IMG/VR virus record: IMGVR_UViG_3300036859_000044 | Coordinates: 1-29,877 of that record | DNA length: 29,877 bases | Strand: one strand, 5' to 3' | From: a virus | Shown: one piece after another, positions 1,434 to 25,628 of the stretch | Position numbering within the stretch: the stretch's first letter is position 1 | Layout: each line of letters starts with the position of its first letter | Program-made: the position numbers and the translations under genes | Notes under the pieces: generated by a model | The model's input: only the letters and a program-made list of their open reading frames with translations | What the model was told of the DNA's origin: nothing | Database searches by the model: none

Positions 1434-1595
1434 ATGACCCCCCCCGTCGTCAATCAGCTCGACGTGGCCTTCGTGTTGTCTGTCACCGGGGCCGCGTTGA
1501 TCTGGGCTCCGGCTGCGCTACTGGTGGCGGCTGGCTACTTCGGCCTGTCCTGGTGGCTGACCGATCGTCGCACTTCTGCTGAAACGACCGAATGA
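1434..1595 (+). CDS. Small single-helix membrane protein coupled to the portal gene
   Basis: This 53-residue product is mostly one hydrophobic stretch (about residues 11-38, beginning VAFVLSVTGAALIW) followed by a short charged tail (TDRRTSAETTE). That is a typical single-pass membrane protein. Its TGA overlaps the portal ATG in an ATGA joint (1592-1595), the main reason to believe it is real. No clear Shine-Dalgarno sequence is seen before ATG 1434. Codons 2-4 contain a run of eight C residues (1438-1445), a place where slippage or a sequencing error could change the frame. The function is unknown; nothing specific to holins or superinfection exclusion can be shown. Confidence 0.6.
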   Translation: MTPPVVNQLDVAFVLSVTGAALIWAPAALLVAAGYFGLSWWLTDRRTSAETTE

Positions 1596-4123
1596 GCATC
1601 TACGTTCCACCTCGGCCTGTCGTACGGCCTGTGATCGCTGAGCCTGCCCAGAAGGCCGGGCCGATCGGTCCCGGCTCGGGAGTCCTGCTGACCGAGTTCA
1701 CCCTCGATTCGGTGTTCGGGACCAATGAATCTCCGCGCAAGAAGATGGAGCGGGCTTGGAAGCTGTCCAAAGAGGTGCCGTGGATCCGCGCAGCGGAGGA
1801 CGTGATCGCCTCCCGCTTCGCCGGGGTGGACTGGCATCTCGAGGACGAGAACGACGAGGAGATCACCCAGGCGACGGAGAACGCGGACGCCAAGGCGGCG
1901 CTGGACCTCATGGAGTTCCCGCAACGGGACCCGTCCCTGGGCGCGCCGTATACGCGGACTTCCTTGTGGTCGCTGGTCTCTCGGACGATGGGGCCGTGCG
2001 GTAGCGCGTTCGTGCTCATGGACCGCCGGGAAGCGTTCGCCGGCACCCCGGCCATTCTCCAGCCCATCGCTCCGTGGCGGTTCACGGCACAGGAGGACCA
2101 GGCCGGTAACCTCATTGGCTGGTGGATCGACAAGACCCAGACCAACCCCGGCATCGCTGTGCGAACGGATGAGCTGATCCACTTCGCCCTGGAACGCGAC
2201 TACCGGGGCCACTTCGGGGTTGGGCTGGTCGAGTCGGCCCTGCTCAAGCTGCGCAACACTCAGGGGCTCGACCAGCATCTGGGCATGGTCATCTCGGCTG
2301 GCGGTCGACTGTCCGGGATCATGTCCCCAGAGCAGGGACTGATCGAGCCCGAGACGATGCTCCAGATGGAGCGCGATTGGCGAACGGTCGTCGAGCAGCA
2401 GGACGCGGCCAAGCGGCTCCAGCTCGTGCGCGCTCCGGTCAAGTTCACCCCGACGACCCTGACCCCCCACGAGCTCATGTTGAAGGACATGATGAACGCC
2501 ACGCGAGACGATCTGCTGGCGCTGTGGGGCGTGCCCTTCCGGATGATCGGCGGCCAGGCGCCCACCGGCCTGAACTCCGGGGAGGCCGCCAAGCAGGATG
2601 AGGCGAACCTCTGGCAGGGACCGGTCCATTCCCGCCTCCTTGTGTTCAAGGAAGGCATCCAGTACCAGATGCTGGATCTCTGGGCACGGCGCGGGGCGAT
2701 CATCGAGTTCGAGGTGGAAGAACCCGAGTTCGACGACGATTCCCCGAGATACGACCTCCTGGGGAAGTCGCTCAACACCCCACTCCGCAACGCCGAACGA
2801 CGGGCCATCATCAACCTCCCGCCGCTGGGCGATCCGCTCCTCGACAACGAGATCCTGCTCCCGGCGACGATGGTCCCCTACGCTTCGGCCCCAGATGAGG
2901 AGGCAGGAACGGTGCTCACGGCCATGCCGCCCGAGCCCGCCCTGCTGGGTTCAGGTACGCCTCAGTCCTTGGCCGCTGGTGAGACCTCCGATAACGAGGA
3001 GCAGAAGGCCGCGCTCGATCTTGACCAGGATGAGATCGACGAGGAGATCGCCCTCTACGACGAAGAGGATGACTGGGGCGAGGACTTCGAGGGGAAGGCC
3101 AAGGCTCCCAAGTTCATTTTCGGCCGACTCAACCCGGCGTACCAGTCGACCGCGACGAGCAAGGATGTCTCGGCTGAGAAGGAATCCATCCGCAAGCGGG
3201 CCATCGCCAAGTACGGCAAGGAGCCCAGCCAGGCGGCGATTGACGCGACATACAAGCGCAACCTCGAACGCAAGCAGCGGCAAGGTATCCACTCACGCGC
3301 CAAGCGCAAGTTCGGGAGGACGGCGAGTGAGGCCGCTGTCACTGCCACGCTTCGCCGGAACCGGACCCGAGATTCCCGACTCAACGCGCTCTTCGAGGGC
3401 AAGGCGCGGATGGATCCCTTGCGGGCCAGCCTGACCAAGCTCCGGGCCAACCTCGACCGGACCATGACTCCGCAGATCCGCAAGCGCGTAGCCAACGTGC
3501 TCGATCGGCAGAAGGCCGAGATCGCGGAGCGCATCCGCAAGCACTCAGCGGCCATCGAGCGCAACCCCAAGGACCAGTCGGTCTGGTGGAACCAGGACAA
3601 ATGGGATAGGGAGATGGCCGCCGCTCTGCGGGGTTCGCTGGAGGGGATGGCCCAGACCGTCTCGACCCATATCGGGGAGACACTTCCGGCGCAGAAGGCC
3701 GAGCCGATGAGCGCGGTCGAGCGGGTTTTGGAACGGGGAGCGGCTCGGGTCACGGAGATCAACGAAACGACACGGGATGCCGTCCAGCGGGCGATCCTCA
3801 CATCCATCGAGGCCGGTCATACGGCGAACGAAGCAGCAGACGCCGTGTCCGAGGCTGCGACCTTCGATTCCTACCGCTCCGAGCTCATCGCCCGGACCGA
3901 GCTGATGGACGCCTACAACACGGCCGCCATCTCCAGCTACCAGGACGCCGGGATCAAGGAAGTCCAGGCGGTCGATGGAGACAAGGATGAGGAGTGCGCC
4001 GCGAGGGACGGACGGATCTTCCCGGCCGACGAAGCCTTCGACATCTCCGACCACCCCAACGGGACCCTCGACTGGATCCCGGTCATCAACTACACCGAGC
4101 TACGCGAGGCGTTCAATGGCTGA
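1592..4123 (+). CDS. Portal protein fused to a C-terminal MuF-like head morphogenesis domain
   Basis: The portal forms the dodecameric ring at one capsid vertex through which DNA passes. Residues 1 to about 470 have HK97/SPP1-type portal character: a variable N-terminus, then a core with GVGLVESALLKLRN and, later, LLALWGVPFRMIGG. An acidic linker follows (about 470-500). Residues about 533-600 contain two similar basic helical units, the first with KYGKEPSQAAIDATYKRN and the second with KFGRTASEAAVTATLRRN. The last 150 residues match the phage Mu F-like family: a long helix, the ARTELMDAYN segment and a D-x-C-x-x-x-DG segment (DEECAARDG) near residue 800. In many phages the portal and MuF are separate genes; here they are one 843-residue product. 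The start is set by the ATGA overlap with the gene before it. Confidence 0.88.
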   Translation: MSIYVPPRPVVRPVIAEPAQKAGPIGPGSGVLLTEFTLDSVFGTNESPRKKMERAWKLSKEVPWIRAAEDVIASRFAGVDWHLEDENDEEITQATENADAKAALDLMEFPQRDPSLGAPYTRTSLWSLVSRTMGPCGSAFVLMDRREAFAGTPAILQPIAPWRFTAQEDQAGNLIGWWIDKTQTNPGIAVRTDELIHFALERDYRGHFGVGLVESALLKLRNTQGLDQHLGMVISAGGRLSGIMSPEQGLIEPETMLQMERDWRTVVEQQDAAKRLQLVRAPVKFTPTTLTPHELMLKDMMNATRDDLLALWGVPFRMIGGQAPTGLNSGEAAKQDEANLWQGPVHSRLLVFKEGIQYQMLDLWARRGAIIEFEVEEPEFDDDSPRYDLLGKSLNTPLRNAERRAIINLPPLGDPLLDNEILLPATMVPYASAPDEEAGTVLTAMPPEPALLGSGTPQSLAAGETSDNEEQKAALDLDQDEIDEEIALYDEEDDWGEDFEGKAKAPKFIFGRLNPAYQSTATSKDVSAEKESIRKRAIAKYGKEPSQAAIDATYKRNLERKQRQGIHSRAKRKFGRTASEAAVTATLRRNRTRDSRLNALFEGKARMDPLRASLTKLRANLDRTMTPQIRKRVANVLDRQKAEIAERIRKHSAAIERNPKDQSVWWNQDKWDREMAAALRGSLEGMAQTVSTHIGETLPAQKAEPMSAVERVLERGAARVTEINETTRDAVQRAILTSIEAGHTANEAADAVSEAATFDSYRSELIARTELMDAYNTAAISSYQDAGIKEVQAVDGDKDEECAARDGRIFPADEAFDISDHPNGTLDWIPVINYTELREAFNG

Positions 4124-5144
4124 GCTGACAGCCGCGGCGATCAACGACCTTCCCGATAGCGACTTCGCCTACATCGAATCCGGAGGCAAGGAAGTCGACG
4201 GCAAGACCGAACCCCGCTCACTTCGCCATTTCCCGATCCACGACAAGGCGCACGTCCGCAATGCCCTTGCCCGTCTGTCGCAGTCCGAGTTCGGCGAGAA
4301 GGCCCGCGCCAGGGTGGAAGCTGCGGCAAAGCGGATGGGCATCGGTGACTCGACCAAGGCGACCGGCGACATGAAGGCCGAGCCGATGGACACGAGCCAG
4401 CTCGACCGCTGGCTGTCGGGCAGGATCCCTCGGCGCATCCTCATGCTGCCCTTCGGTGGTCCGCTGCCAGGGGGCAAGGCCGGTCTCGATCTCGATGGCG
4501 AGTACATGGATGAGGCGACCGACATCTACGGTCCGTTTCCCTCGCTGCGGGCTACCCGAGAGCGAGTGGTGGACTGGCATCACGACGATTTCGGCGTGCC
4601 GCCCGACCCCAAGCTGCACTCGATGAAGGGCGCCATCATCGGTCATCTCCAGTTCGACGAAGACCCCGAAGCCGACGGCTACTGGGCGGATTGGTGGGCC
4701 AATGCCGGCGAGAAACGGCGACGGCTGATCGGGCTGCTCGAGCGCAAGGGCGTGCCGCTCTTCGGCTCCACCCAGGCGGTCAAGGGGGCGCGCCTGCTGT
4801 GGCCACCGGAGGAAGACGGGCACATCACCGTCTGGCCAGTCACCCGCCACACCATCTCCACCTCTCCCCAGAACACCTACGCCGTGGTCCCTGCCCTCAA
4901 GGCAGTCCTCGGCTCATCCATCGACGAGATCCCGGCCGAGGCGCTCAAGGCGTTCCTGGTCGGACTCGACGCAACCACGACGGAGCTTCTTCTGAGCTCG
5001 TCTGGGACGGCGGTTGACGCTTCCGTCCAGACCGGTGACGAAGCGGTGAAGACGGAGGCAGACGAGGCGAAGCTCGAAGCGGCCCTCGATGCCCTGGGAA
5101 GCGTGCTCCCCAACCTATCCGACTTCATCAGAGGGAAACCATGA
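4116..5144 (+). CDS. Prohead (capsid maturation) protease with N-terminal DUF6582-like segment
   Basis: This 342-residue product should be the serine protease that trims capsid and scaffold during head maturation. ATG 4116 overlaps the portal stop by 8 bases. Residues 3-75 (SDFAYIESGG, HFPIHDKAHVRNALARL, AAAKRMGI) resemble the small domain often called DUF6582 beside phage head genes. The protease part, about residues 105-280, has a candidate catalytic His in DWHHDDFG, a candidate Ser in FGSTQA, and a C-terminal WPVTRHTISTSPQN stretch like the strand closing the HK97 protease fold. Its place between portal and capsid supports the call. The active-site assignment is inferred from pattern and spacing. 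Confidence 0.75.
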   Translation: MAELTAAAINDLPDSDFAYIESGGKEVDGKTEPRSLRHFPIHDKAHVRNALARLSQSEFGEKARARVEAAAKRMGIGDSTKATGDMKAEPMDTSQLDRWLSGRIPRRILMLPFGGPLPGGKAGLDLDGEYMDEATDIYGPFPSLRATRERVVDWHHDDFGVPPDPKLHSMKGAIIGHLQFDEDPEADGYWADWWANAGEKRRRLIGLLERKGVPLFGSTQAVKGARLLWPPEEDGHITVWPVTRHTISTSPQNTYAVVPALKAVLGSSIDEIPAEALKAFLVGLDATTTELLLSSSGTAVDASVQTGDEAVKTEADEAKLEAALDALGSVLPNLSDFIRGKP

Positions 5145-6577
5145 GCACAGAAGAGAAGCTCGATCAACTTCTGGCTGGCATCGGCCAGTTGACGAAGGTG
5201 ATCGAGGAATCCAAGGCATCCGACGGTGGCCGAGTGGCCGCTGCGGAAGACGGGCGAACCGAACTCGCCCAGAAGGCGACCGCGGTCGCCCGTGAGCGCA
5301 CGGACGCCGAGATCGCCAAGGAGAAGGCCGATCGCAAGGCCGAGATCGACGAGGCGGTCAAGGCGGCACTGCTGAACACGCGGACACCGAGTCTGCTGGC
5401 AGCCATCGGCCAGGGCAGCGGTGCTCCGACCGAAGGCCGGATGATCCGCCAGGCCGCCCTGCCGCCCCACGACGCTCTCAAGGCGATCTTCACCGATTAC
5501 CAGGCAGGCGAACTGCTCGGTGGCCTGGTGGATGTCATGTGGGGCATGAAGGCCGCCGACTTCGCAATGGTCAATCAGGGCAAGGCGAAGCTCTCCGAAC
5601 TGACCGAGTGGGCCGGCGTCCCTGAAGCGTCCAAGGCCACCCTGGGTGCGACCGGAGCGACCGGCGGGTACGTCCTGCCGAACAATCTGGTCGACACGCT
5701 CATCAAGCCCAACGTCCAGGAGGCTCTGTATCAGAACCTCGTGACGGTGCGCTCGGGCGTCAACGTCCGGGGTGTCGACATCCCCTACCGCACCGGAGCA
5801 CCGGCGCGGATGACCTTCCAGGACTGGGGCACGACCAAGGAGAACGTGGACGAAGCCTACGGCTCGTACACCGCGCTCCTGGGCACCATCGCCCGGATCT
5901 ACGACATCGGCAAGCAGTACGCCCGGTTCTCATCGGGCGCCGCCGAACGCGATGTCATGGATGAACTCGGCAAGGCTGCGATCCTTGGCGAGAACTTCTA
6001 CGTCCTCGCGGGTGCGGGGACCGGCTCGCTGGGCTCGGGCGATCCCACGACCGGTGTCTACACCGCCCTGACCGCGGCCGGTATGGGTGGGGCGTTCACC
6101 ACGACCGGCGCTCCGGCTGCCGGCACCGTGGCGGGTTCTGCTGCCGCCCAGTTCGCCACGGCCTTCGGGGCGATGGCGACACGTTCCCGCCGACCTACGG
6201 CCGTCGTGACCGATGCCGTCACCTTCTGGTCGCTGTACTCGCAGGGCTCGGACAACGCCGGGTTCTGGATGAGCGACCTCCTCGGTGCCGGGTTCACGAT
6301 CGGGGCCGACACGGCTCTCCGCTGGAGGGGCGTGCCGATCCTGTACGACGCCAACTTCGACACCAACACCGGAACGACCAAGCGCGCCATCGCGGCCGAC
6401 TGGCCGGAGTTCAAGCTCTATCGCGGGATGGAGTTCCGGGTCGATACCTCCGATGTCGCCGGAGAACGATGGGACAAGAACCTCATCGGCTTCCGTGGCG
6501 AGGAGGAGATCGGCTTCAACGCCAAGTCGGCGATCTTCACCGGCGCGGCACAACTCATCACCGGCGTCATTCCGTGA
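5141..6577 (+). CDS. Major capsid protein, HK97 fold, with N-terminal scaffold (delta) domain
   Basis: This is the shell-forming protein. The first 110 or so of 478 residues are highly charged and predicted to form a coiled coil (EEKLDQLLAGIGQL, ARERTDAEIAKEKADRKAEI), as expected of the delta domain cut off by the prohead protease upstream. The HK97-type body follows: a GGYVLPNNLVDTLI segment near residue 180, a VRGVDIPYRT strand, and a C-terminal IGFRGEEEIGFNAKSAIF stretch. ATG 5141 overlaps the protease stop (ATGA). The gene ends before a strong hairpin at 6598-6629, so capsid expression may be separated there from the sugar-modification genes that follow. Confidence 0.9.
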   Translation: MSTEEKLDQLLAGIGQLTKVIEESKASDGGRVAAAEDGRTELAQKATAVARERTDAEIAKEKADRKAEIDEAVKAALLNTRTPSLLAAIGQGSGAPTEGRMIRQAALPPHDALKAIFTDYQAGELLGGLVDVMWGMKAADFAMVNQGKAKLSELTEWAGVPEASKATLGATGATGGYVLPNNLVDTLIKPNVQEALYQNLVTVRSGVNVRGVDIPYRTGAPARMTFQDWGTTKENVDEAYGSYTALLGTIARIYDIGKQYARFSSGAAERDVMDELGKAAILGENFYVLAGAGTGSLGSGDPTTGVYTALTAAGMGGAFTTTGAPAAGTVAGSAAAQFATAFGAMATRSRRPTAVVTDAVTFWSLYSQGSDNAGFWMSDLLGAGFTIGADTALRWRGVPILYDANFDTNTGTTKRAIAADWPEFKLYRGMEFRVDTSDVAGERWDKNLIGFRGEEEIGFNAKSAIFTGAAQLITGVIP

Positions 6578-6597: not shown

Positions 6598-6629
6598 CCC
6601 CCGGTCGGTTCTCACCGGCCGACCGGGGG
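6598..6629 (+). terminator. Strong GC hairpin after the capsid gene
   Basis: CCCCCGGTCGG (6598-6608) pairs perfectly with CCGACCGGGGG (6619-6629) around a 10-base loop, an 11-bp stem rich in G and C. No T-run follows, so it could be an atypical terminator, a partial attenuator that lowers downstream expression relative to capsid, or an mRNA 3'-end stabiliser. It lies 21 bases after the capsid stop and just before the AGGAGA ribosome-binding site (6638-6643) of the next gene. Confidence 0.6.
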
Positions 6630-6646
6630 GCACCTACAGGAGACAG

Positions 6647-7126
6647 ATGCACGCCTCGGTCATGGAGTACGTCGGGCAGGCCATATCGACCTACGGTCTC
6701 GCTTCGCTGCGCACCCTGGAACTCGGCAGTACGGACATCAACGGCTCCGTGCGGGGCCTGTTCATGGGCGAGTACATCGGCATCGACCACGCGACCGGAG
6801 AAGGCGTCGACCTTGTGATGAGCGCCAGTGCACTGACGTTCCCCGACGCCAGCTTCGATGTCGTGGTATCCACTTCGATGCTCGAGCATGACCCGGCCTT
6901 CTGGCTGACGCTGCCCGAGGTCGGCCGGGTTCTGCGACCCGGTGGGCACTTCATCCTGACCACCGTCTCGACTGGCTGTGACCCGCACAACCCACCCGAT
7001 TACTGGCGCTTCCTGCCCGACACGTGGCCCCTGCTCATGGACATGGCCAGGTGCCGAATCATCGATGCGCGCGACGATCCCGACATGCCCAAGGGCGGCC
7101 CGCAACTCACGGGGGTCCGGCGGTGA
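6647..7126 (+). CDS. Class I SAM-dependent methyltransferase
   Basis: The 159-residue protein has the core motifs of a Rossmann-fold methyltransferase: LRTLELGSTD (SAM-binding motif I, about residues 21-30), GIDHATGEGVDLV (motif II region), FDVVVSTSMLEHD (motif IV) and LRPGGHFILTT (motif V/VI region). It lacks the C-terminal half of larger family members but keeps a plausible minimal fold. Its substrate cannot be read from the sequence. It is the first gene of a run of sugar-active genes, so methylation of a glycan or nucleotide sugar is the favoured inference. The start has a good AGGAGA site four bases before ATG. The joint with the next gene is GTGA. Confidence 0.82.
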   Translation: MHASVMEYVGQAISTYGLASLRTLELGSTDINGSVRGLFMGEYIGIDHATGEGVDLVMSASALTFPDASFDVVVSTSMLEHDPAFWLTLPEVGRVLRPGGHFILTTVSTGCDPHNPPDYWRFLPDTWPLLMDMARCRIIDARDDPDMPKGGPQLTGVRR

Positions 7127-7332
7127 CCGCGCTCGAAGCTATCGACCTCGAACGGTGGGCCTATGATCAAGTGGACATGTTCCCCCATTACCGGACCCTG
7201 ACCAGCTACGCCCGCGAATGCCTGACCATCGTCGAGTTCGGGGTCCGAGGTGGGGTCTCGACTTGGGCGCTGCTGGACGGATTACCGGAGGACGGCTACC
7301 TCTATGGCCTTGCCACGCTGGAGACGGCATGA
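7123..7332 (+). CDS. Short methyltransferase-like protein, apparently truncated
   Basis: This is a 69-residue product starting at GTG 7123 (GTGA overlap). Residues about 31-55 (IVEFGVRGG then VSTWALLDGL, followed by DGYLYGL) match the SAM-binding motif I region of small-molecule and sugar O-methyltransferases of the Methyltransf_24/TylF type. The protein ends where the acidic residue of motif II would be expected, so it cannot be a complete catalytic domain. The reading frame after it does not continue the family, so a single frameshift does not explain the loss. It may be a remnant kept by translational coupling, or a non-catalytic partner of the methyltransferase before it. Confidence 0.6.
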   Translation: MTALEAIDLERWAYDQVDMFPHYRTLTSYARECLTIVEFGVRGGVSTWALLDGLPEDGYLYGLATLETA

Positions 7333-7538
7333 CGACCTGGGACACCCGCGCGCCGATTGACGTGCTCGACAACGCGCAGACGCGCCGGACGGTCTTGTAT
7401 GGCCCGCGCGGTGAGGCGTTGGTCGTGCGCGAACCTCGCCGGCTTGGTTTCCGGGAGCCGTCAACCTGCGAGCGGCACGGACATGCACCGGACAACCATC
7501 CCCCGCAGTCCAACCTCCCCGGATGGCACTCGCCATGA
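7329..7538 (+). CDS. Hypothetical protein, 69 residues
   Basis: The product is not recognised. It starts at ATG 7329 (ATGA overlap) and ends in an ATGA joint with the glycosyltransferase at 7535. The first 45 residues (APIDVLDNAQTRRTVLYG, EALVVREPRRLGFREP) look like a small folded beta-rich segment. The tail is rich in His and Pro (GHAPDNHPPQSN) and probably disordered. No membrane segment or metal-binding pattern is evident. Only its setting inside the methyltransferase and glycosyltransferase run suggests a role there. Confidence 0.6.
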   Translation: MTTWDTRAPIDVLDNAQTRRTVLYGPRGEALVVREPRRLGFREPSTCERHGHAPDNHPPQSNLPGWHSP

Positions 7539-8536
7539 GATCCGCCCTCCTCCCCACCCCCGGCGACCCGTTCATGCTCAGCTACTGGCTGCGCAACTAC
7601 GAGACGTGGCGCGATCAGGTGGACGAGCTGGTGGTCTGCATCAACGGCAACCAGACGCCCGAGGTACTCGATTACGACCAGCGCATCGTGGAGCGGGCGG
7701 GCGGGCGGGCGATGATCTTTCCGCAGTCCATCGGCCACGACGGGGCGATGCTGTGGCTGCTCCAGAACATCAGCGCCGAGTACATCGTCATGTGCGAGGA
7801 CGACGCTTACGTCCGCCACCCCGAAGCCGTGGGTCAGGCGTTCGTCAAGATCAAGACAGGGCAGACCGATATCGTCGGTAGCCCGCGCCACGAGGACTAC
7901 GCCACGTCGCCTCGCCAGGAGTGGGGGCCGTATACCCCAGGCGACCTCGCCGAGCTCCGGCATGGCCTGTGGCCAGCCTTCCTGTTCATTCGGCGGGAGG
8001 AACCCCTAGCGACGGACAGGGTATTCGGGGACCGCGGCTGGCCGAGAGGCGGACACATCGCCGGTTGGGGTTCAGTGACACCAGAGGCGTGCGCGTTCGT
8101 CGGGATCGCCGCGGAATACCTCCACCTCGATACCTTCTTCGGAACGACGTTCCAGTTGCGCGCCAAGGGCCTCCGAACCGAACTCGTCCACAACGTCCGG
8201 GTATATGACGCGCAGGCCACGGAGGATTGGGTCGCCCTCGATCCACCGTGGTTCCACGTCACCAACCTGTCCACCATCAACTACGTGCTGGACGGCACGC
8301 CGATCGACCAGATCCCTGACTGCGGTCCGGGCGGTGGACTGTGGACACGGCGGGTCGCGTGGTGGACGAGAACGTGGAAAGAGGCCGACTTCGGTAGCCC
8401 CGGTTGGGAGGAGCGCGGGCGCGTACTGATCGAGTTCATGCAACGTGCCGAGATGGTGAATAGGTCAGTCCGAGCGTGGGGTGAACGCTTCGATCCGTGG
8501 GTCACTTGGAACGAACGCGCGGCGGTGCCAGCATGA
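7535..8536 (+). CDS. GT-A fold glycosyltransferase-like protein
   Basis: The 333-residue product has an N-terminal nucleotide-sugar-binding pattern of GT-A (GT2-like) enzymes: LRNYETWRDQVDELVVCINGN, cut here to its core ELVVCINGN, then YIVMCEDDAYVRHPEA with EDD at about residues 88-90 as the DxD-type metal motif. A mid-section (HGLWPAFLFIRREE, GHIAGWGSVTPEACAF) fits the acceptor half. Such enzymes move a sugar from a nucleotide donor to an acceptor in the cytoplasm. ATG 7535 gives an ATGA overlap; an ATG at 7523 is in frame but would overlap by 16 bases. Donor and acceptor are unknown; virion proteins or host surface glycans are possible. Confidence 0.72.
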   Translation: MRSALLPTPGDPFMLSYWLRNYETWRDQVDELVVCINGNQTPEVLDYDQRIVERAGGRAMIFPQSIGHDGAMLWLLQNISAEYIVMCEDDAYVRHPEAVGQAFVKIKTGQTDIVGSPRHEDYATSPRQEWGPYTPGDLAELRHGLWPAFLFIRREEPLATDRVFGDRGWPRGGHIAGWGSVTPEACAFVGIAAEYLHLDTFFGTTFQLRAKGLRTELVHNVRVYDAQATEDWVALDPPWFHVTNLSTINYVLDGTPIDQIPDCGPGGGLWTRRVAWWTRTWKEADFGSPGWEERGRVLIEFMQRAEMVNRSVRAWGERFDPWVTWNERAAVPA

Positions 8537-9588
8537 CCCGCGTCGTCCAGTGCCTGTCTCACTCGATCGAGTCCTACGATCAGCTCAGGCTCTACACCGA
8601 CCTCGGCATCGAGGCGGTCGACATTGGCGGCTACATCGACCCGAGGTTCCCCCATGATCCGAAGCGTCCGCCAGTTCCTGATGCGCCGTTCGTCCCGGAG
8701 ATCAAGGCGGCTATCGATGCCCTGGGTACGACCGACAACCTCGGCGCCGCCCAGAGCTGGACTCCCGATGCGGTCCTGGACTGGCTCGGCGATGACGGGG
8801 TACTCATCTACCACCACTATCTCGAACGACTCTTCGGGCAGTGGGACCGTATCCGTGACTGGAAGCGGGGTAACGCTGGCCGGCGGGTCATCTGGCGCAC
8901 CGTAGGGCAGTCGGTCGAGGCCAATGAGAAGCGCGCCGCGCCGTTCCGGGCCGACGGGCTGGAGATCGTCCGCTATTCGCCCAAGGAACGGAACATCCCG
9001 TCGTACGCGGGTGAGGACGCCCTGATCCGGTTCTACAAAGACCCCGATGAGTGGACCGGGTGGACCGGCCACATCCCGGCGGTCATCAACATCACGCAAC
9101 ACCTCGCGCAGCGTGACCCGTATACCAACTACGGCTTCTGGCGGCAGGCCACCGAAGGGCTCAACGCGATACCGATGGGGCCGGGCTCAGAGGCCATCGG
9201 CGGACCGGGCGAGATGACCCACGCGGCCATGAAGCAGGCCCTCCGGGACCATCGCGCCTATCTCTACACCGGCACTCAGCCGGCCAGCTACACCCTCGGT
9301 CTCATTGAAGCGATGATGACGGGCATCCCCGTCTACTCGATCGGGCCGAAATGGATGAGCATCTTCCCTTACGGACCTGACCTGTTCGAGGGACACGAGA
9401 TCGCCATGGACGCCAGTGATGATCCATCGCGCACGCGCGCGAGAATGGGCGAATGGCTTGATGACCTCCACTTCGCGCAGATGATCAGTGAAGACATTCG
9501 CGAGCGCGCCATCGAACTCTTCGGCAAGGAGACTATCGGCGCCCAGTGGGCTCAGTACCTCGGTGTGAAGGTGCCCGTTCATGCCTAA
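8533..9588 (+). CDS. GT-B fold glycosyltransferase-like protein
   Basis: The 351-residue product begins at ATG 8533 (ATGA overlap). Its C-terminal half carries the donor-binding signature of GT-B enzymes: AYLYTGTQPASYTLGLIEAM and then MTGIPVYSIGP (about residues 240-275), where the Glu of LIEAM normally contacts the nucleotide sugar. The N-terminal half (VVQCLSHSIESYDQLRLYTD, then AVDIGGYIDPR) fits the acceptor domain less clearly. Family membership is supported by this motif only. It overlaps the next gene by 8 bases. Confidence 0.7.
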   Translation: MTRVVQCLSHSIESYDQLRLYTDLGIEAVDIGGYIDPRFPHDPKRPPVPDAPFVPEIKAAIDALGTTDNLGAAQSWTPDAVLDWLGDDGVLIYHHYLERLFGQWDRIRDWKRGNAGRRVIWRTVGQSVEANEKRAAPFRADGLEIVRYSPKERNIPSYAGEDALIRFYKDPDEWTGWTGHIPAVINITQHLAQRDPYTNYGFWRQATEGLNAIPMGPGSEAIGGPGEMTHAAMKQALRDHRAYLYTGTQPASYTLGLIEAMMTGIPVYSIGPKWMSIFPYGPDLFEGHEIAMDASDDPSRTRARMGEWLDDLHFAQMISEDIRERAIELFGKETIGAQWAQYLGVKVPVHA

Positions 9589-10567
9589 CGTCCTCGTCGA
9601 CCGTCACCACTCGGGGCTGTTCCATAGCTGGCAGCTCATGGCGCGTCGGTTCGGCTGGACGCTCTACACCCCGGTCGGCATGGACTGGTGGGATCGCTGG
9701 TACTGGAGCTTCGGGCGCTCGACCTACAACGACGACCGGCTGGCGCAGCAGTTCCTCATGGGCCATCCCGGCGTAGACGGGCTCGGCCCGCTGATCGACG
9801 GAGAGTTCCCCGACTGGCCGATCATCGGCGTGACCCTCGACGAGGCATTGCGCATGGACTGGGACTACGTGATCGCCACGGTCCCCGACAACGAACCAGG
9901 GTTCTCCCGCTTTGCCCGCGAAGTGGTGGCGCAGTACGTCATCGGGGTCGGCAACACCGGGCAGTTCGTGAACTGGAGTCTGGACCCATTGGCTCTCGTG
10001 TCATCCGAGATGCCGATCGAGGGACGGGGGATCAGATACCACCAGGAGATCGACCGGATCGAGTACGTACCACCGGAGAGTCCGTGGGGCGCAGCCTCAT
10101 TCGTCAACTGCATGCCGCAGATGGGCTCGTGCTGGGATTACCTAGAAGCAGCCAAGGAGCACATGTCCGTGCTCGTCTTTGGCATCAACGGGCCGGACGG
10201 CATCGTCAAGCCCTACTCCAAGATGATCCAAGCGATGGGCTCAGTTGGCTGGGGCTGGCACGACAAGGCGCAGGGCGACGGTTTCGGCCACGTCATCCAT
10301 TCATGGGCAGCGGTAGGCAGGCCGCTGATCGGCCACGCCTCCCACTACCGGGGCAAGATGGCCGAGCCGTTCTGGGTGGACGGCGAGACGTGCATTGACC
10401 TCGACAAGCACTCAGTAACGGAGGCGCTGCATATCGTCACCGAGATCGATCCGCTCGAGCACATCCAGATGTGCGAGCGGATCAGGGCACGGTTCGAGCG
10501 TGAGGTGGATTACGACGCGGAGGCTGACAGGATCGCGGAGTTCCTTGGCGTGAGGGTGCTAGCGTGA
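9581..10567 (+). CDS. Probable glycosyltransferase, GT-B-like, divergent
   Basis: The 328-residue product is less clear than its neighbours. It opens LVDRHHSGLFHSWQLMARR, as an N-terminal Rossmann domain might, and is rich in Trp and Tyr. Near residues 225-265 is a donor-site-like region (GFGHVIHSWAAVGRPLIGHA, then a Glu-rich GETCIDLD), and the C-terminus is a helix typical of GT-B enzymes. Similar proteins in phages are usually annotated only as hypothetical or glycosyltransferase. Position supports the call: it sits between two better-supported glycosyltransferases with an 8-base overlap before and GTGA after. Confidence 0.55.
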   Translation: MPNVLVDRHHSGLFHSWQLMARRFGWTLYTPVGMDWWDRWYWSFGRSTYNDDRLAQQFLMGHPGVDGLGPLIDGEFPDWPIIGVTLDEALRMDWDYVIATVPDNEPGFSRFAREVVAQYVIGVGNTGQFVNWSLDPLALVSSEMPIEGRGIRYHQEIDRIEYVPPESPWGAASFVNCMPQMGSCWDYLEAAKEHMSVLVFGINGPDGIVKPYSKMIQAMGSVGWGWHDKAQGDGFGHVIHSWAAVGRPLIGHASHYRGKMAEPFWVDGETCIDLDKHSVTEALHIVTEIDPLEHIQMCERIRARFEREVDYDAEADRIAEFLGVRVLA

Positions 10568-11808
10568 CCCGCATCCTGTGGCTCGGGGATCTCGGCGGGA
10601 CTGGCTTTGGCACCGTCACGCAGGATCTGTGCCACGCCCTCGTGGACCGGGGCGAGGACGTGCGGGTGTTTGCCTTCCGCGACACCCTGCCATCTATCGT
10701 GCCGGAGTGGGCTGAGGGGCGAATCGTCAGTCTCGAGCGCGCCGGACAATGGTTGACCTGGGACGAAACGATCAGCGCCGGCGAGCGGATGCGCCTCGCT
10801 TTCGCGAAGCTGTTCACCGCTGAGGGATATGACGACGGCTGGGCACCCGATTGCGTGATCGTGCTCGGCGACCCCGCTGCGATCATTCGCTCAGAACTGC
10901 TGGGCGTCCTCCCTCCAGGGCTTCCCGCCTATCACTACGTGCCGATCGAGGGAATCGGACTGCCTCCCTCGTGGCGGACGATCTGGCAGCGGATCAAGCC
11001 GATTGCCATGAGCAAGGCGGGCGCGGCAGAGATCGGGCGGCTGATGCTCACTTCGGACATCCCGGTGGTCTACCACGGGGTCAACACCGACGACTTCTAT
11101 CCGGCCACGCCCAGTCACCCGATCACCTGGCCGGGGGAGGAGAAGATCATCACCTCGCGGAGTGATGCCAAGGCGGCGTTCGGGATCGATCGCAAGACGA
11201 CGGTCCTTCTTCGGACGGATGCCAACATGCCGCGCAAGTCATACGGGGCGCTGTTCCGTTCGCTGGCTCCCGTTCTCGCTGCCCACCGGGATCTCATGCT
11301 GATCGTCCATGCCCGACGGATCGGGGAGGGCGGCAACCTCGACGAGTTCCGCTCGCACTTCCCTCCGGAGATCTCGGGCAAGATCGCCGTTCCCGACTTC
11401 CACGACAAGTACGGCGGTCTCCCTCGCTACGCCCTGGCCACGCTGTACAACGCGGCCGACATCTACGTCAGTAACTCATGTGAGGGGTTCGGTCTGACCA
11501 TCGCCGAGGCCATCGCCTGCGGCGTCCCTGCGGTCGGTCTCGACTTCTCTGCCGTGCCGGAGGTCATCGGCCCGGCCGGGGTCGTCGTGCGGCCGGGCCG
11601 GTTCGTGGAGAACATCTACGCCCACTGGTGGGCGGTGGCCGACGAGGAAGCCTTCGGCATCGCGGTCAACGACCTCATCCGTAACAAGCCCGCTCGCTGG
11701 AAGTACGCTGGGCAGGGTCCAGAGCACATCCGCTCATCGTTCACCTGGGGCCAGGCTGCCGCGCAGCTGTCGGAGATCGTTGGAGTCAGGGAGGCCGTCG
11801 CCGCATGA
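10564..11808 (+). CDS. Glycosyltransferase family 4-like (GT-B)
   Basis: This 414-residue protein is the best-supported glycosyltransferase here. The N-terminus has the acceptor-domain start (ILWLGDLGGTGFGTVTQDL, glycine-rich loop then helix). Residues about 300-335 carry the EX7E donor motif (EGFGLTIAE) followed by ACGVPAVGLDFSAVPEVIG, diagnostic of the GT4 retaining class. An interdomain VYHGVNTDDFYP element precedes it, as in GT4 enzymes. GTG 10564 overlaps the previous stop, and the stop overlaps the connector gene start (ATGA), so sugar genes and head-tail genes are in one coupled transcript. Confidence 0.85.
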   Translation: MTRILWLGDLGGTGFGTVTQDLCHALVDRGEDVRVFAFRDTLPSIVPEWAEGRIVSLERAGQWLTWDETISAGERMRLAFAKLFTAEGYDDGWAPDCVIVLGDPAAIIRSELLGVLPPGLPAYHYVPIEGIGLPPSWRTIWQRIKPIAMSKAGAAEIGRLMLTSDIPVVYHGVNTDDFYPATPSHPITWPGEEKIITSRSDAKAAFGIDRKTTVLLRTDANMPRKSYGALFRSLAPVLAAHRDLMLIVHARRIGEGGNLDEFRSHFPPEISGKIAVPDFHDKYGGLPRYALATLYNAADIYVSNSCEGFGLTIAEAIACGVPAVGLDFSAVPEVIGPAGVVVRPGRFVENIYAHWWAVADEEAFGIAVNDLIRNKPARWKYAGQGPEHIRSSFTWGQAAAQLSEIVGVREAVAA

Positions 11809-12689
11809 CCGTCGCAGCTTGGCAGGCCACCCACGTCTACGTGGCAGGGAACATCGTCAACCCGACCGTCGCCAACGGCCACTCATACATCTCGATCGTC
11901 GGAGGGACGTCTGGAGGCACGGAGCCTACGTGGTCGGGGCGTTGGCCGGCCGTTGCCGACGGGGTGGCGAACACTTGGGCGCCATACTCGATCATCACTC
12001 CGGCGACCCTTCGTTCACAGATGAACTGGGACTCCTCGACCGGGCAGTACACCGACACAATCCTCGGCAACTACATCCTCGACGCCATCGCGTCACTGGA
12101 ACTCGCCACGTCGCGGTACCTGGTCAATCGACCCGGCGCGACGTATGCCGTGACATCCAATGGGCGGCCGCTCCTTCCGCTCCCGAACCTGCGCACGGCC
12201 ACTTCGGTGGTCTGGCAGGGCGCCACCCAGACAGCCGGGACCCCAGGAGGAGGGGGCTCCGGCTACATGCTCCTGCCGGACATCCAGCAGACCGGGGTGT
12301 ACACGGGAATCCAGTTCCGGCCGTTCAACGTCGATCCTCGGGGTCCGTGGTGGCTGTCACTCGGAGGGGCGACGTCCAACTGGTTCGACACCGGGGCCGA
12401 TTCACCCTTCGATCCGCGCAACTACGCCTCGGGCTACTTCTTCACCTCGACCTCGCAGGACACCGTGATCGTCGGGGACTGGGCATGGGAGCCGCTCTTC
12501 GAGCCGGGGAACGTGACCCATGCGGTCGAGGTCCTCGCAGCGTGGTACGGAATGCGCCCAGCGGCCATCCTCGCGGATTCGGTCATCACCCCAGCCGGTG
12601 GGATCGTGTCCTATTCCCAGATGCCGCCGGAGGTCCAGCAGTTCGTCAAGAGCTTCACCGCCGGGCAGCAAGTCGTGAGCATCGGCTGA
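11805..12689 (+). CDS. Head-tail connector with extra N-terminal carbohydrate-binding-like domain
   Basis: The 294-residue product has two parts. Residues 5-60 (AWQATHVYVAGNIV, then GGTSGGTEPTW and a final W) resemble short beta modules of the CBM5/12 chitin-binding type, also found in phage tail proteins; an equivalent domain opens the protein at 13280. From about residue 65 the pattern LRSQMNWDSSTGQYTDTILG with LELATSRYLVNRPG matches the helical connector (adaptor, HK97 gp6/SPP1 gp15 type) that docks under the portal. A longer beta-rich extension than in minimal adaptors follows (about 120-250). It is the first neck gene after the sugar island and ends with a TGATG joint. Confidence 0.7.
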   Translation: MTVAAWQATHVYVAGNIVNPTVANGHSYISIVGGTSGGTEPTWSGRWPAVADGVANTWAPYSIITPATLRSQMNWDSSTGQYTDTILGNYILDAIASLELATSRYLVNRPGATYAVTSNGRPLLPLPNLRTATSVVWQGATQTAGTPGGGGSGYMLLPDIQQTGVYTGIQFRPFNVDPRGPWWLSLGGATSNWFDTGADSPFDPRNYASGYFFTSTSQDTVIVGDWAWEPLFEPGNVTHAVEVLAAWYGMRPAAILADSVITPAGGIVSYSQMPPEVQQFVKSFTAGQQVVSIG

Positions 12690-12823: not shown

Positions 12824-13280
12824 GCTCGAAGGGTTCCGCCAGGTGATGGCCCGCTTCGAGGCGATCCGCAGTCCGCGCGCGAGCACGGATCGGATGAAGC
12901 TGCTGGCCGTCGCCGCGAATCGGGAGCAGCGGATCCTGACCCAGCCGAACAAAAAGACCGGGATCACTCAGAACTCGATCGGCTACTCGAGCCTCTCGGC
13001 CACGAGCGTGACGACGCAAGCCGCAGGTGCGGCGATCTGGCTCGAACGCGGAACCAAGCCGCACATCATCCGTCCGCGAGTCGCCAAGGTCCTGGCATGG
13101 GGCGGGGCGCGCCGGTTGAGCGGAGCACTGCGCAAGGGGGCCAGGGCCGAGTTCTTCGCCCGGATCGTCCACCATCCGGGCTCGCGGGCCTTCCCGTTCA
13201 TGCTCCCAGGCGCGCGCAAGGCGCTCGAAAAGGCCGGCATCGTCGAATCCATCGTTGACGACTGGAACAGGGCTGCCTGA
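12816..13280 (+). CDS. Neck/minor head-tail protein, HK97 gp10-like
   Basis: The 154-residue product starts at ATG 12816 (8-base overlap). An N-terminal helix (FRQVMARFEAI) is followed by AAIWLERGTKPHIIRPR, the motif typical of the HK97 gp10 / tail-completion family, in which a short strand and 'E.GT..H.i.P' precede the C-terminal part. It ends HHPGSRAFPFMLPGARKAL, again as in that family (PGs...PFl.pA). These proteins join the completed head to the tail. Order and size fit the connector - gp10 - tail terminator series. Confidence 0.78.
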   Translation: MAELEGFRQVMARFEAIRSPRASTDRMKLLAVAANREQRILTQPNKKTGITQNSIGYSSLSATSVTTQAAGAAIWLERGTKPHIIRPRVAKVLAWGGARRLSGALRKGARAEFFARIVHHPGSRAFPFMLPGARKALEKAGIVESIVDDWNRAA

Positions 13281-13897
13281 TGGCGAACGTCGTTCCCGCC
13301 TGGACCGCCCTGACCGTGTATGCCCTTGGTGCCCGTGTCTCGAAGGTCACCGATGACGGGCTGATCTTCCAGGCATCCACCGGAGGGACATCGGGGGCGG
13401 CTCAACCCACTTGGCCGACCGTGCATCCGTGGACCGTCGTGGACGGAACGGTCACCTGGATGCTGGCTTCCTCGTTTCGCCAGCAGACGGTGGCTGGTGT
13501 CGAGACAGTCCTGCTTGCGTTCAAGGCAGCTAATCCGACGCTGCTGGTCCAGGTAGACACGGCCAAGCCCAGGTCAGGCTCGACGTTCACGATGCCCGGA
13601 GCGTACGTCGACGCCCGCTACGAATCGGTCGTGTTCATGCACGACATCCGCCAGACGACCCTGACGACTCCCGTCGTGGTCCTGGTCCAGGTCTCGGACA
13701 ACCAGCTGGCCGAGCGACAGATGGACGCGATCATGGACGGCCTCCGGGACGCCTTCACCCTCGCCTACCACGCCACCAACGCGATCTCGATCACCGCCCA
13801 GAACGTCGCCCAGGACACGGACTTGCCGGAGTTGGGCGTGCCCTATCTCGCCAACGTCATCGGCATCGTGTCCACCATCGCTGAGGGCCGTACATGA
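13280..13897 (+). CDS. Tail terminator/completion protein with the same N-terminal domain as the connector
   Basis: The 205-residue product opens with residues 7-63 (AWTALTVYALGARV, GGTSGAAQPTW, DGTVTW), which align position by position with the N-terminus of the connector at 11805. The remaining 140 residues (VETVLLAFKAANPTLLVQVD, later LAERQMDAIMDGLRDAF and YLANVIGIVSTIAEG) fit a small alpha/beta tail terminator, the hexameric ring that caps the tail tube and meets the neck. That assignment comes mostly from position just before the major tail protein. It starts in a TGATG joint. Confidence 0.65.
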   Translation: MANVVPAWTALTVYALGARVSKVTDDGLIFQASTGGTSGAAQPTWPTVHPWTVVDGTVTWMLASSFRQQTVAGVETVLLAFKAANPTLLVQVDTAKPRSGSTFTMPGAYVDARYESVVFMHDIRQTTLTTPVVVLVQVSDNQLAERQMDAIMDGLRDAFTLAYHATNAISITAQNVAQDTDLPELGVPYLANVIGIVSTIAEGRT

Positions 13898-21874: not shown

Positions 21875-23200
21875 GTGGACCGCAGACGCTTCCTGATCGG
21901 CTCGGGGCTGGCACTGATCGGCGGGGCAGAAATGCTCCGCCGCGATACCATGCTTCCTCCCCCGCATGCATCAGGGTCCGAGGCGCATAGGGTGCCGCGT
22001 TACTTCGGCTCCCCCGCCCCGACAACGCTGGCCGCCTTTGCCCTGACGACTGCCGCGGCCGGCGGCTGGTCATGGTTTGGCGATCCGCGGGCGGTCTATT
22101 ACAACGGCAAGACGTACTTCGGCTACATCCGGGGGGACAATGGGAACGTCTGCATCCGCTCGTACGATCACGTTACGGAGATTGTGAGCGCCGAAACCGT
22201 GCTTCATGCCGCGCTGGAGATCGACGACCACGATGTCCCGAGCATCCATGTCCGGCCGTCCGATGGACGGATCGTGGTGTGGTACTCGGCGCATCTTGGC
22301 CCCGCGATCTATCAGCGCATCTCGACCAACCCCGAAGACATCAGCGCGTTTGGCTCCGAAACCGACCTCGACGCGTCCTTCGGGGGGAGCCAGTACACCT
22401 ACCCGTCCCCGGTCTACACGTCTTCGGGCACGACGATCTGGCTGTTCGTTCGCAGCCACGTGGCCGGCATCGCCTACTGGTGGTACAACGCCTCCGGCAA
22501 CGGCGGCGCAACGTGGGGTTCGACGACGCAGCTCCATTCGGTGACGTATTCGAAGATCGCCAGCAACGGGACGGATCGGATCGACGTAGCCTGCTCGAAC
22601 CACCCCGACGCAGGCGCGACCAAGATCTATCACCTGTACCGCCAATCAGCGGCCTGGCACAAGAGCGACGGGACGAACATGGGTACCGGCATTCCGTTCG
22701 CCGGGACGGATATGACCACGGTCTATGACGGTGGAGCTAAGCTCGTCTGGATCTGGGACATCGCGTACAAGTCGGACGGCAACCCGGTCATCGTCTTCGT
22801 CAAGTTCGAGTCGACAACCGATCACCGCTATATGTATGCCGACTGGGACGGCTCGACTTGGACGGTGACCGAGATCGTGGCTGGTGGTTCCTACATCGCC
22901 ACCGATCTCGGATTCAATGCCAGCCAGGTTTACTACTCGGGTGGTGTGGTACTCGATCATTCGGACCCGACAATCGTATGGGCTTCGGTGGGTGTCGGGG
23001 GCGGTGTCTGGGAGATCCGTCGGCTGGTGACCGCGAATGCGGGCGCGTCGTTCAGCAGCTCGACCCTCGTGTCGTCGGGAAAGAACATGCGACCGGTCTC
23101 GGTCCGCAACCACGTGCCCGGCCTGCAGGCGCTCTATATGCCCGGAACCTACGCGAGCTATGTGACCTACAGCGTCGGGACGAGCGGCGTCGGGCTGTAG
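21875..23200 (+). CDS. BNR-repeat (BNR_4-like) beta-propeller protein with Tat-like leader
   Basis: The 441-residue product matches BNR_4-type propellers found in sialidase-like and polysaccharide-lyase-like proteins: GGWSWFGDPRAVYYNGKTYF near residue 65, then EIDDHDVPSIHVRPSDGRIV and VVWYSAHLG. It is probably glycan-active or glycan-binding. The N-terminus reads RRRFLIGSGLALIGG, a twin-arginine-type export leader, odd for a virion protein. GTG 21875 keeps this leader but has no clear ribosome-binding site. ATG 21932, with GGGG upstream, would give a leaderless form. It is the last + strand gene of the tail block. Confidence 0.7.
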   Translation: MDRRRFLIGSGLALIGGAEMLRRDTMLPPPHASGSEAHRVPRYFGSPAPTTLAAFALTTAAAGGWSWFGDPRAVYYNGKTYFGYIRGDNGNVCIRSYDHVTEIVSAETVLHAALEIDDHDVPSIHVRPSDGRIVVWYSAHLGPAIYQRISTNPEDISAFGSETDLDASFGGSQYTYPSPVYTSSGTTIWLFVRSHVAGIAYWWYNASGNGGATWGSTTQLHSVTYSKIASNGTDRIDVACSNHPDAGATKIYHLYRQSAAWHKSDGTNMGTGIPFAGTDMTTVYDGGAKLVWIWDIAYKSDGNPVIVFVKFESTTDHRYMYADWDGSTWTVTEIVAGGSYIATDLGFNASQVYYSGGVVLDHSDPTIVWASVGVGGGVWEIRRLVTANAGASFSSSTLVSSGKNMRPVSVRNHVPGLQALYMPGTYASYVTYSVGTSGVGL

Positions 23201-24245: not shown

Positions 24246-24458
24246 ATGACCCAACCCGAAGTCCTGCCGACCGAGGATCTACGTGCCTGGGATTGGCGAG
24301 CTGATCTCAAACGCGACGAGCGGGGGATCCCCTGGCTCGCACGTCAGACCCATAAGAGCCAGACGACCGTCTACTCCTACGCCTATGGAACGCGGGCGAC
24401 ACCGATCGCGTGGCTGGAGGAAGTCGCGCGTCTGCTCGGAAAGGCGACGACACCGTGA
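24246..24458 (+). CDS. Small HTH regulator (Cro-like), first early gene
   Basis: The 70-residue product fits a minimal helix-turn-helix protein: RDERGIPWLARQTHKSQTTV is the candidate HTH (about residues 26-45), followed by SYAYGTRATPIAWLEEVARLLG. It faces the repressor across the operator and is the first gene of the early block, the position of Cro. The start appears leaderless (see promoter). It ends in a GTGA joint with an HNH endonuclease gene. DNA binding is inferred. Confidence 0.65.
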   Translation: MTQPEVLPTEDLRAWDWRADLKRDERGIPWLARQTHKSQTTVYSYAYGTRATPIAWLEEVARLLGKATTP

Positions 24459-25069
24459 CTGGACTTCGGGTAGATTGGCCTAAGACGGACCTTACATTAT
24501 CGGCATGGGCGGAAGTACCACGGCCGTCTACCCTAAGTCGTACTGACCCCCACGCAGTCTGCCGAACGCTGGCGCTGCCGTCTGACAGACGCCGTGGCGA
24601 TTTCTGGTCGAAGGTCTACAGGACCGAATGCTGCTGGCTGTGGGCTCGCGCTCGCTTGGCGGTCACAGGCTATGGCGCTGCGTGGCGGGATGGCCGGGTC
24701 GTTGGCGCACACCGCGTCGCCTATGAGGACGCGATCGGTCCGATCCCGGCTGGCCTCGATGTCATGCACTCGTGCGATGTCAGGCACTGTGTCCGACCCG
24801 ATCATCTCCGCGCCGGCACCCGCGTTGACAACCAGCGCGACATGGTCACCAAGGGTCGGAACGGTCCGCAGCACGGCGAATACAACCACCACGCCAAGTA
24901 TACGTGGGCACAGATCCATGCCATTCGGGATCGCCGCCGCCAAGGTGAAAGCAGACAGGCTCTAGCCGCTGAGTTTGGCACTCCCGCGCACTACATCTAC
25001 AGCATCACTTCCGAACGGGTCTGGCCCGAGTCAATCTGTCCTGTCCACGGATCTCAGGCAGCGGCATGA
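24455..25069 (+). CDS. HNH endonuclease with C-terminal helix-turn-helix segment
   Basis: The 204-residue product starts at GTG 24455 (GTGA). Residues about 50-125 are a typical phage HNH domain: ECCWLWARARLAVTGYGA, GAHRVAYEDAIGPIPAGLDV, MHSCDVRHCVRPDHLRAGT, with the His/Asn-type core and two Cys pairs for structural zinc. A C-terminal segment (KYTWAQIHAIRDRRRQG, then SRQALAAEFGTPAHYIYSI) looks like a resolvase-type HTH. Such proteins are often homing-type or packaging-associated nickases; here it sits inside the early operon with coupled ends and no split host gene. Confidence 0.82.
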   Translation: MTGLRVDWPKTDLTLSAWAEVPRPSTLSRTDPHAVCRTLALPSDRRRGDFWSKVYRTECCWLWARARLAVTGYGAAWRDGRVVGAHRVAYEDAIGPIPAGLDVMHSCDVRHCVRPDHLRAGTRVDNQRDMVTKGRNGPQHGEYNHHAKYTWAQIHAIRDRRRQGESRQALAAEFGTPAHYIYSITSERVWPESICPVHGSQAAA

Positions 25070-25266
25070 TCGCGCCCCCTCCCCCTCTCCCCTCTCGGCC
25101 AGTCCTACTGCCAGATGACCGAAGTGCCGCCGCCCGCCTCGAGGATCTGCTAGAGCTCCGGGACCGAGCTCGCGTCCGAGGCTACGCGGACCTCGTCGAA
25201 CTCTACACCGACCGCATCCTCGATGACGCCTTCGGCTTGAACGGCCCTGGCGGACACGCTGCCTAA
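25066..25266 (+). CDS. Hypothetical protein between two HNH genes
   Basis: The 66-residue product is not recognised. A Pro-rich start is followed by a charged helix pair (AAARLEDLLELRDRARVRG, YADLVELYTDRIL), and the end is Gly-rich. It overlaps the HNH gene before (ATGA) and the HNH gene after (TAATG), so it is probably translated. Its function is unknown. Confidence 0.6.
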   Translation: MIAPPPPLPSRPVLLPDDRSAAARLEDLLELRDRARVRGYADLVELYTDRILDDAFGLNGPGGHAA

Positions 25267-25628
25267 TGGACGGCTGCATCTTCTGGCCCGGGAGGATCAA
25301 CAAGAAGGGCTACGCCTATCTCGGCGGGATGCCCGCGTACCGGCTGTTCTACGAACGGAACATCGGCTCGATCCCTTCCGGTTATCACGTGGACCATACG
25401 TGCTTTGTGCGCGACTGCATCAATCCCGCCCATCTGCGTCTCCTCCTGGCAGACGAGAATCGGAGTTTGCAGCGCGAGTCGATCAAGACCCATTGCATCA
25501 ATGGCCACGAGTTCACGGTCGAGAACACCTACATCCGCCCGAAGGTGCATCGCGGTGGTAATCGCGACTGCCGGACGTGCATCCGTGATCGAGTAAGCCG
25601 ATATAAGGCTAGGCGGGACGCTGCATGA
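25266..25628 (+). CDS. Second HNH endonuclease, with a C-terminal zinc knuckle
   Basis: The 120-residue product holds a compact HNH domain: CIFWPGRINKKGYAYLGG, PSGYHVDHTCFVRDCINPAH, then LRLLLADENRS. The HxxH-type core (VDHTC, INPAHLR) is intact. Residues about 78-113 add a Cys/His knuckle (THCINGHEF, then DCRTCIRDR), common in phage HNH proteins. It is not a close copy of the HNH protein at 24455. A role in DNA processing or mobility is likely; the exact one is unknown. Confidence 0.8.
   Translation: MDGCIFWPGRINKKGYAYLGGMPAYRLFYERNIGSIPSGYHVDHTCFVRDCINPAHLRLLLADENRSLQRESIKTHCINGHEFTVENTYIRPKVHRGGNRDCRTCIRDRVSRYKARRDAA

Follow-up and report, generated by a model that had tools for sequence, protein, structure and literature searches.

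Glycosyltransferases (GTs) encoded by phages are usually classed as genes of DNA protection or of lysogenic conversion. In the linear IMG/VR virus record IMGVR_UViG_3300036859_000044 (29,877 bases, referred to below as the window), a block of seven open reading frames (ORFs), g1 to g7, with GT and methyltransferase genes among them, is sandwiched by the gene of the HK97-type major capsid protein and that of the head-tail connector. It is fairly probable that this block is a late-expressed, capsid-linked glycan locus, whose soluble enzymes would furnish a virion protein with a methyl-capped glycan.

Comparable arrangements have been described in several phages. In the cluster J mycobacteriophages (Omega, Thibault, LittleE) 8-10 genes, including several GTs and S-adenosylmethionine (SAM)-dependent methyltransferases, are located exactly between the genes of the major capsid protein and the head-to-tail adaptor; the function of this insertion was unknown at the time of that report (PMC3706429). 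Re-reading of the Thibault and LittleE genomes confirmed the layout of capsid, GT/methyltransferase block and adaptor, and the Thibault capsid proved to be distantly related to that of the window (match to the window-capsid hidden Markov model (HMM), 3.7e-18). The cluster J GTs are, however, mostly GT2-like and non-homologous to g4-g7, the block includes a Ser/Thr kinase, and the genomes are about 106-109 kb long. In cluster O (Corndog, Firecracker) an O-methyltransferase and three GT-like genes lie within the head operon with short overlaps, but their place is between portal and protease and not behind the capsid gene. The O-methyltransferase has the Pfam family PF13578 in common with full-length homologues of g2. 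HMMs of g4-g7 did not match the enzymes of Firecracker, Thibault or LittleE, and the enzymes of clusters O and J appear to work alike without being the same enzymes as g4-g7. Corndog is the best experimental parallel. Its gp38 was reported as essential for capsid glycosylation in a passage of PMC12363180 that cites Freeman 2023. Few capsid peptides of Corndog were recovered, for which the authors suggested glycan and methyl modification, and the methyltransferase and GT enzymes were not found in virions (PMC4351075).

True homologues of the block are present in two other phages. Pontimonas phage phiPsal1 has the order capsid, GT4, methyltransferase, GT2, neck, with homologues of g7 (2e-60), g1 (2e-21) and the connector (1e-8); its genome paper does not discuss these genes (PMC6106888). 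In Microcystis phage Mae-JY09 a hypothetical gene and a GT4 gene (2.5e-70) come after the capsid gene, and then an epimerase-like gene and the adaptor. Unlike the window, both lack g4, g5 and g6. In the chlorovirus PBCV-1, virus-encoded and mostly soluble GTs together with class I SAM methyltransferases (A064R-D3, A061L) build and O-methylate the glycan of the major capsid protein (PMC9614988). PBCV-1 is, however, a eukaryotic giant virus whose genes form no capsid-linked operon, and the likeness is one of working, with no claim of relatedness. The idea is thus already known, because cluster J has the layout with non-homologous enzymes, and phiPsal1 and Mae-JY09 have it with homologues of g7. 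What is new is the near-obligatory constancy across an uncultured clade, the hypervariability, the phage-restricted GT families and the association of one set of GTs with four capsid families.

Conservation of the block beside the capsid gene

The + strand run of the window comprises, in this order, terL, portal-MuF, protease, HK97-type capsid, the seven-ORF block (6647-11808), connector, tail genes, tape measure and early genes. Neighbouring genes of the block overlap by 4-10 bp, mostly by 4 bp, and the end of g7 overlaps the start of the connector gene (11805), an arrangement that allows co-transcription with the head genes. In the cassettes called with our own gene caller, 4-bp overlaps were present at 143 of 233 gene junctions. 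In the window, and likewise in relatives, GT and methyltransferase genes lie inside the operon of virion structure. The initial annotation had described a seven-gene, overlapped + strand block between capsid and neck genes and was correct in coordinates, strand and gene number.

In the first four relatives the order capsid, methyltransferase (where present), g4, g5, g6, g7, connector was wholly or mostly retained (L005 lacked g4), and in three of them the shared enzymes were 42-67% identical, the capsids merely 36-37%. For a larger set, scans with g5, g6 and g7 alignments yielded 116 viral contigs, all ORFs of which were searched with iterative HMMs; each scan retained at most 80 loci, the HMMs were built up from these same loci, and contigs may be fragments. 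Of the contigs with capsid, connector and g7, all 49 carried g7 in between the other two and on their strand, and the order capsid, g5, g6, g7, connector was found in 41 of 41 contigs. Since these contigs had been fetched by their enzymes, a converse scan was made with ten capsids as queries. Again, g7 lay in between in every one of the contigs that contained capsid and connector, or gp10 (53/53); the two border genes were never adjacent, the gap amounting to at least 2.2 kb in all 53. About 20 of these contigs were absent, by contig name, from the enzyme-first set, and a few of them look like near copies of each other. A search for the same gene order in related phage contigs had been set beforehand as a check, and in both directions the order was found. 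With the gene order conserved, chance is excluded and the block cannot be regarded as inserted at random.

A second group of contigs has the same GT families in other orders, e.g. g7-g7-g5-g4-g6. In this group the block comes after a P22-type coat gene (PF11651) in 11 contigs, mostly at a distance of 170-420 nt, an HK97-type capsid gene of phrog_1623 in L020 and a phrog_14242 capsid gene in L022; in L082 and L020 a head-tail adaptor comes after the block. The window-capsid HMM matched none of these P22-type, phrog_1623 or phrog_14242 capsids. (The count of capsid families omits L018 and L024, where the HMM derived from phrog_14242 matched many places and the capsid gene is uncertain.) Because gene order differs across the capsid families, it is the place beside the capsid gene that is conserved, and not one operon inherited whole.

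Searches of isolated phages gave no match for g4, g5, g6, the window capsid, the divergent g5 homologues or the FkbM protein described below, and the GT families of g4, g5 and g6 were absent from 50,697 phage records. When about 85,000 genomes of bacteria and archaea were scanned with g7, weak or partial GT4 matches only, and no prophage, came up; on the strength of these matches a recent host origin of the enzymes was rejected. Protein distances of g7 correlated with those of the connector (0.79) and of the capsid (0.70) about as capsid and connector did with each other (0.77), and the correlations for g5 and g6 were looser (0.39-0.52). The median ratio of nonsynonymous to synonymous substitutions was alike, about 0.2, for g5, g6, g7, capsid and connector, with some duplicated loci included. 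The core GTs are under purifying selection, and the two measures together indicate that the GTs are maintained and that g7 is inherited with the head.

Enzymes of the block and its variable part

Four glycosyltransferase-like and two methyltransferase-like genes had been proposed. The four GTs were borne out (Pfam for g7, fold for g6 and g4, profile for g5), whereas of the methyltransferases g1 is intact (Methyltransf_11) and g2 is a broken remnant of 69 amino acids. The orthologue of g1 in L004/L111 is 69% identical. The homologue of g2 is 169 amino acids long in L002, L108 (=L003), L111 (=L004) and L081, and the full-length protein of L002 matches Methyltransf_24 (PF13578). In the window, residues 1 to about 62 are joined in frame to the C-terminal GLATLE, about 100 residues being deleted. 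By its sequence g2 appears to be a former second methyltransferase, dead in this genome, although the deletion may be an assembly error. g3 (69 amino acids) had no Pfam or PHROG match; a similarity over 36 amino acids was found in L036 and L222. With g2 a remnant and g3 without a family, one intact methyltransferase (g1) and four GTs remain.

g7 scored above the Pfam cut-off for PF13692 and PF00534. It has the signature of GT4 enzymes (retaining GT-B), i.e. the EX7E motif (E307, E315) and the basic pair in the C-terminal domain. The active-site residues K225, E307 and E315 are present in 108-110 of about 110 relatives; of the basic pair, R217 is found in 84/110 and K225 is near-invariant. For g6 and g4 searches of family libraries gave no useful match. 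Structure prediction, proposed earlier as a check, was run on both and gave GT folds (GT-B and GT-A, respectively). The AlphaFold2 model of g6 (pLDDT, the predicted local distance difference test, 78) has a GT-B fold matching TarM (VIA Z 21) and HepE (Foldseek 7e-8), with BshA and PglA also among its neighbours. The g4 model, whose mean pLDDT is 63 with a poor C-terminal half, has a GT-A/GT2 fold, with PcManGT as best match (Z 14.4) and RmlT, TarP and AvpGT among the top matches (Foldseek/VIA); its residues E88 and D90 are invariant across 24 sequences. g5 was classed by profile comparison, not from a folded model: it matched g7 with probability 97 (E 2e-10), and the comparison of g6 with g7 was weaker (probability 91). 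g5 was found in at least 160 viral contigs. Folds and profiles of g4-g7 name the family, not the donor or the acceptor.

The DNA from the capsid gene to the core GTs is hypervariable across relatives. It contains 39 clusters of other proteins, including an FkbM methyltransferase (PF05050, 41 copies), GT2s, NAD epimerase, FdtA (a dTDP-sugar ketoisomerase), GNAT, KAS III, CTP transferase (cytidylyltransferase), hexapeptide acyltransferase and, in L020, PIG-L. By their families these genes are tools for making and decorating sugars. One glycan block (L134:5058-9396) carries FdtA, GNAT, a short-chain reductase and KAS III, a content that suggests an acylated amino-sugar made by the phage. In another, an asparagine-synthetase-like (amidotransferase) gene (L114:7132-7968) adjoins an epimerase, an SGNH hydrolase and a hexapeptide transferase. 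HNH endonucleases were found inside the variable stretch of L004 and L016. The window has HNH-type genes at 24410-25069 (HNH_3 by Pfam) and 25266-25628, and a relative of the former lies inside the L004 glycan block (7848-8318), so homing endonucleases visit the locus. No obvious multi-span membrane proteins were seen among 248 cassette proteins, and no hydrophobic segment was found in the window's own enzymes.

Hairpin and neighbouring features

The coordinates of the block, its borders and the stem-loop preceding it are collected in Table 1. The hairpin that the initial annotation had placed ahead of the block is present, with 11 perfect pairs (13 in the folded model) and -28.5 kcal/mol; 16 of 200 shuffles folded equally well. 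Lacking a T-run and not called by terminator prediction, it was rejected as an intrinsic terminator. In 19 of 88 loci, some of which are on one contig, the capsid gene is followed by a stem of at least 10 bp. The earlier proposal that the hairpin keeps expression of the block below that of the capsid is therefore only a possibility. Recurring after the capsid gene without a T-run, such strong stem-loops might stabilise the mRNA or serve as processing sites, and thereby set the capsid:enzyme ratio.

Table 1. Position and assignment of the features of the window
Feature	Position	Strand	Evidence or remark
Source record	linear, 29,877 bases		IMG/VR virus record
Major capsid protein, HK97 type	5141..6577	+	PF05065 7.3e-9, phrog_10; upstream of the block in all relatives
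GC-rich stem-loop, no T-run	6598..6632	+	between capsid gene and g1
g1, class I SAM methyltransferase (Methyltransf_11), intact	6647..7126	+	PF08241 1.9e-10, phrog_32762 6.5e-19
g2, 69-aa internally deleted Methyltransf_24 remnant	7123..7332	+	169-aa homologues in relatives
g3, 69-aa ORF without family	7329..7538	+	Pfam, PHROG searched
g4, glycosyltransferase, GT-A (GT2-like) fold, EDD motif at residues 88-90	7535..8536	+	Foldseek/VIA
g5, GT-B-like glycosyltransferase, core gene	8533..9588	+	profile match to g7
g6, GT-B glycosyltransferase, core gene	9581..10567	+	AlphaFold2 model, structure matches
g7, GT4 glycosyltransferase, core gene directly before connector	10564..11808	+	PF13692 8.7e-11
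Head-tail connector, downstream border of the block	11805..12689	+	position and family in relatives

The connector, which fits this role in every relative, has a carbohydrate-binding-like domain at its N-terminus (phrog_20658, 7.4e-9 at residues 5-64). Alike W/Y-rich domains start the connector (11805-12000) and the tail-completion protein (13280-13480), and resemble CBM5/12 (E 0.04) and a PHROG head-decoration domain (7e-9); the connector matches in L002, L004 and L005 start only past this domain. Upstream, a single ORF of 843 amino acids (1592-4123) is a portal fused to a MuF-type minor head domain, and two small - strand ORFs between terL and portal (999-1434), one of them ribbon-helix-helix regulator-like, are possibly a toxin-antitoxin or regulator pair. 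A BNR_4 (sialidase-like propeller) protein at 21875-23200 has a twin-arginine-like start signal, RRRFLIGSGLALIG, which is unexpected in a tail or lysis protein of a phage. Neither the Rfam nor the tRNA scan gave a match anywhere in the window.

Function of the locus and rival explanations

Decoration of the virion, perhaps with a methylated sugar, had been proposed for this block. It gains support from the gene order, the several unrelated capsid families, the sugar genes and the published mycobacteriophage precedent, and it fits the lack of membrane proteins and the near absence of base-hypermodification genes. Several observations weigh against it. The closest folds of g4 and g6 include GTs of teichoic acid or lipid-linked acceptors (TarM, TarP, PimA) besides protein O-GlcNAc transferases (GtfA, SdgB), and with acceptor classes mixed in this way the fold does not name the acceptor. 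The structure list of g6 also contains the T4 DNA glucosyltransferases (Z about 17), 12 of the 248 cassette proteins have a single hydrophobic stretch, and co-transcription with head genes fits any other late function as well.

The teichoic-acid GTs among the fold neighbours (TarM, TarP, RmlT) would also suit modification of the host surface, i.e. late remodelling of an envelope glycan (teichoic acid, capsule, lipopolysaccharide) for superinfection exclusion or to avoid sticking to debris, a role that has been proposed for GTs of freshwater actinophages and pelagimyophages (PMC10202952, PMC7029224). This explanation is unlikely: the enzymes of the window lack hydrophobic segments, no flippase, polymerase or GtrA-type partner was found (GtrA, PF04138, in 0 of 26 long contigs), and the attachment to capsid genes of several families would be left unexplained. 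O-antigen conversion of the Gtr type was rejected, given the missing GtrA and multi-span partner and an integrase in just 4 of the 26 contigs; these phages therefore do not usually live as serotype-converting prophages. Glycosylation of modified DNA bases against restriction is quite improbable. The g6 model does resemble the T4 beta- and alpha-glucosyltransferases and the GT of phage HY126, but at a level common to all GT-B enzymes. Base glucosylation of the T4 type requires a hydroxymethyl-base synthase of the thymidylate synthase family; the window has no PF00303 gene, nor have 25 of 26 contigs, several of these perhaps being incomplete. Moreover, FdtA, epimerase, acyltransferases and KAS III suit complex glycans, and the block is linked to the capsid, not to replication genes. 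DNA hypermodification was rejected on the single match to that family, the gene at C1:8941-9279 of L249 (G019). Both the host-surface and the DNA-modification explanations are thus disfavoured.

The capsid-connector junction might alternatively be a hot spot that tolerates cargo, the GTs being selfish or generic morons without a role in the virion. The high variability between capsid and core GTs, invaded by HNH endonucleases, would agree with this, yet it is scarcely probable with a GT in every relative (53/53), g7 tracking the head genes, a cargo consisting nearly entirely of glycan enzymes, and purifying selection. Similarly little probability is given to a free or lipid-linked small molecule, e.g. 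a compatible solute or glycolipid, made late in infection: MshA, BshA and PimA are among the GT4 relatives, but no matching acceptor-making gene is conserved, and linkage to the capsid is not predicted by this explanation.

If the block is a virion glycan locus, the soluble phage GTs (g4 of GT-A type; g5, g6 and g7 of GT-B type) would modify a late virion protein in the cytosol, using nucleoside diphosphate sugars from host or phage and producing a short oligosaccharide. g7 would be the constant enzyme of the pathway, and g1 would cap one sugar hydroxyl by O-methylation. Sugar O-methylation is the natural reading because of the Methyltransf_24/TylF family of the cluster O O-methyltransferase and the proven capsid-glycan methyltransferases of PBCV-1. 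Judged from the genes, the glycan is most likely carried by the major capsid protein or by a head-neck partner, and the major capsid protein is likely either its acceptor or a co-expressed partner. The benefit may be shielding of the particle or adhesion. Exchange of the variable genes would alter the chemistry of the coat. Turnover between capsid and core GTs resembles that of an O-antigen locus, and sister phages would accordingly differ in the chemistry of their coats.

A broader proposal is made tentatively and is rather doubtful as yet: capsid glycosylation may be an obligatory step of head assembly in a widespread uncultured clade, with a constant GT trio, an exchanged glycan locus and chemical 'serotypes' locked to the capsid gene, the same enzymes being coupled to several capsid families unrelated in sequence. 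That a GT is no less constant than the connector gene opens virion glycosylation to direct test and suggests a rule in a large group of environmental phages. A swappable sugar coat would affect sticking, persistence and recognition of the particles, and the phage-restricted GT families could supply new glycan-building enzymes.

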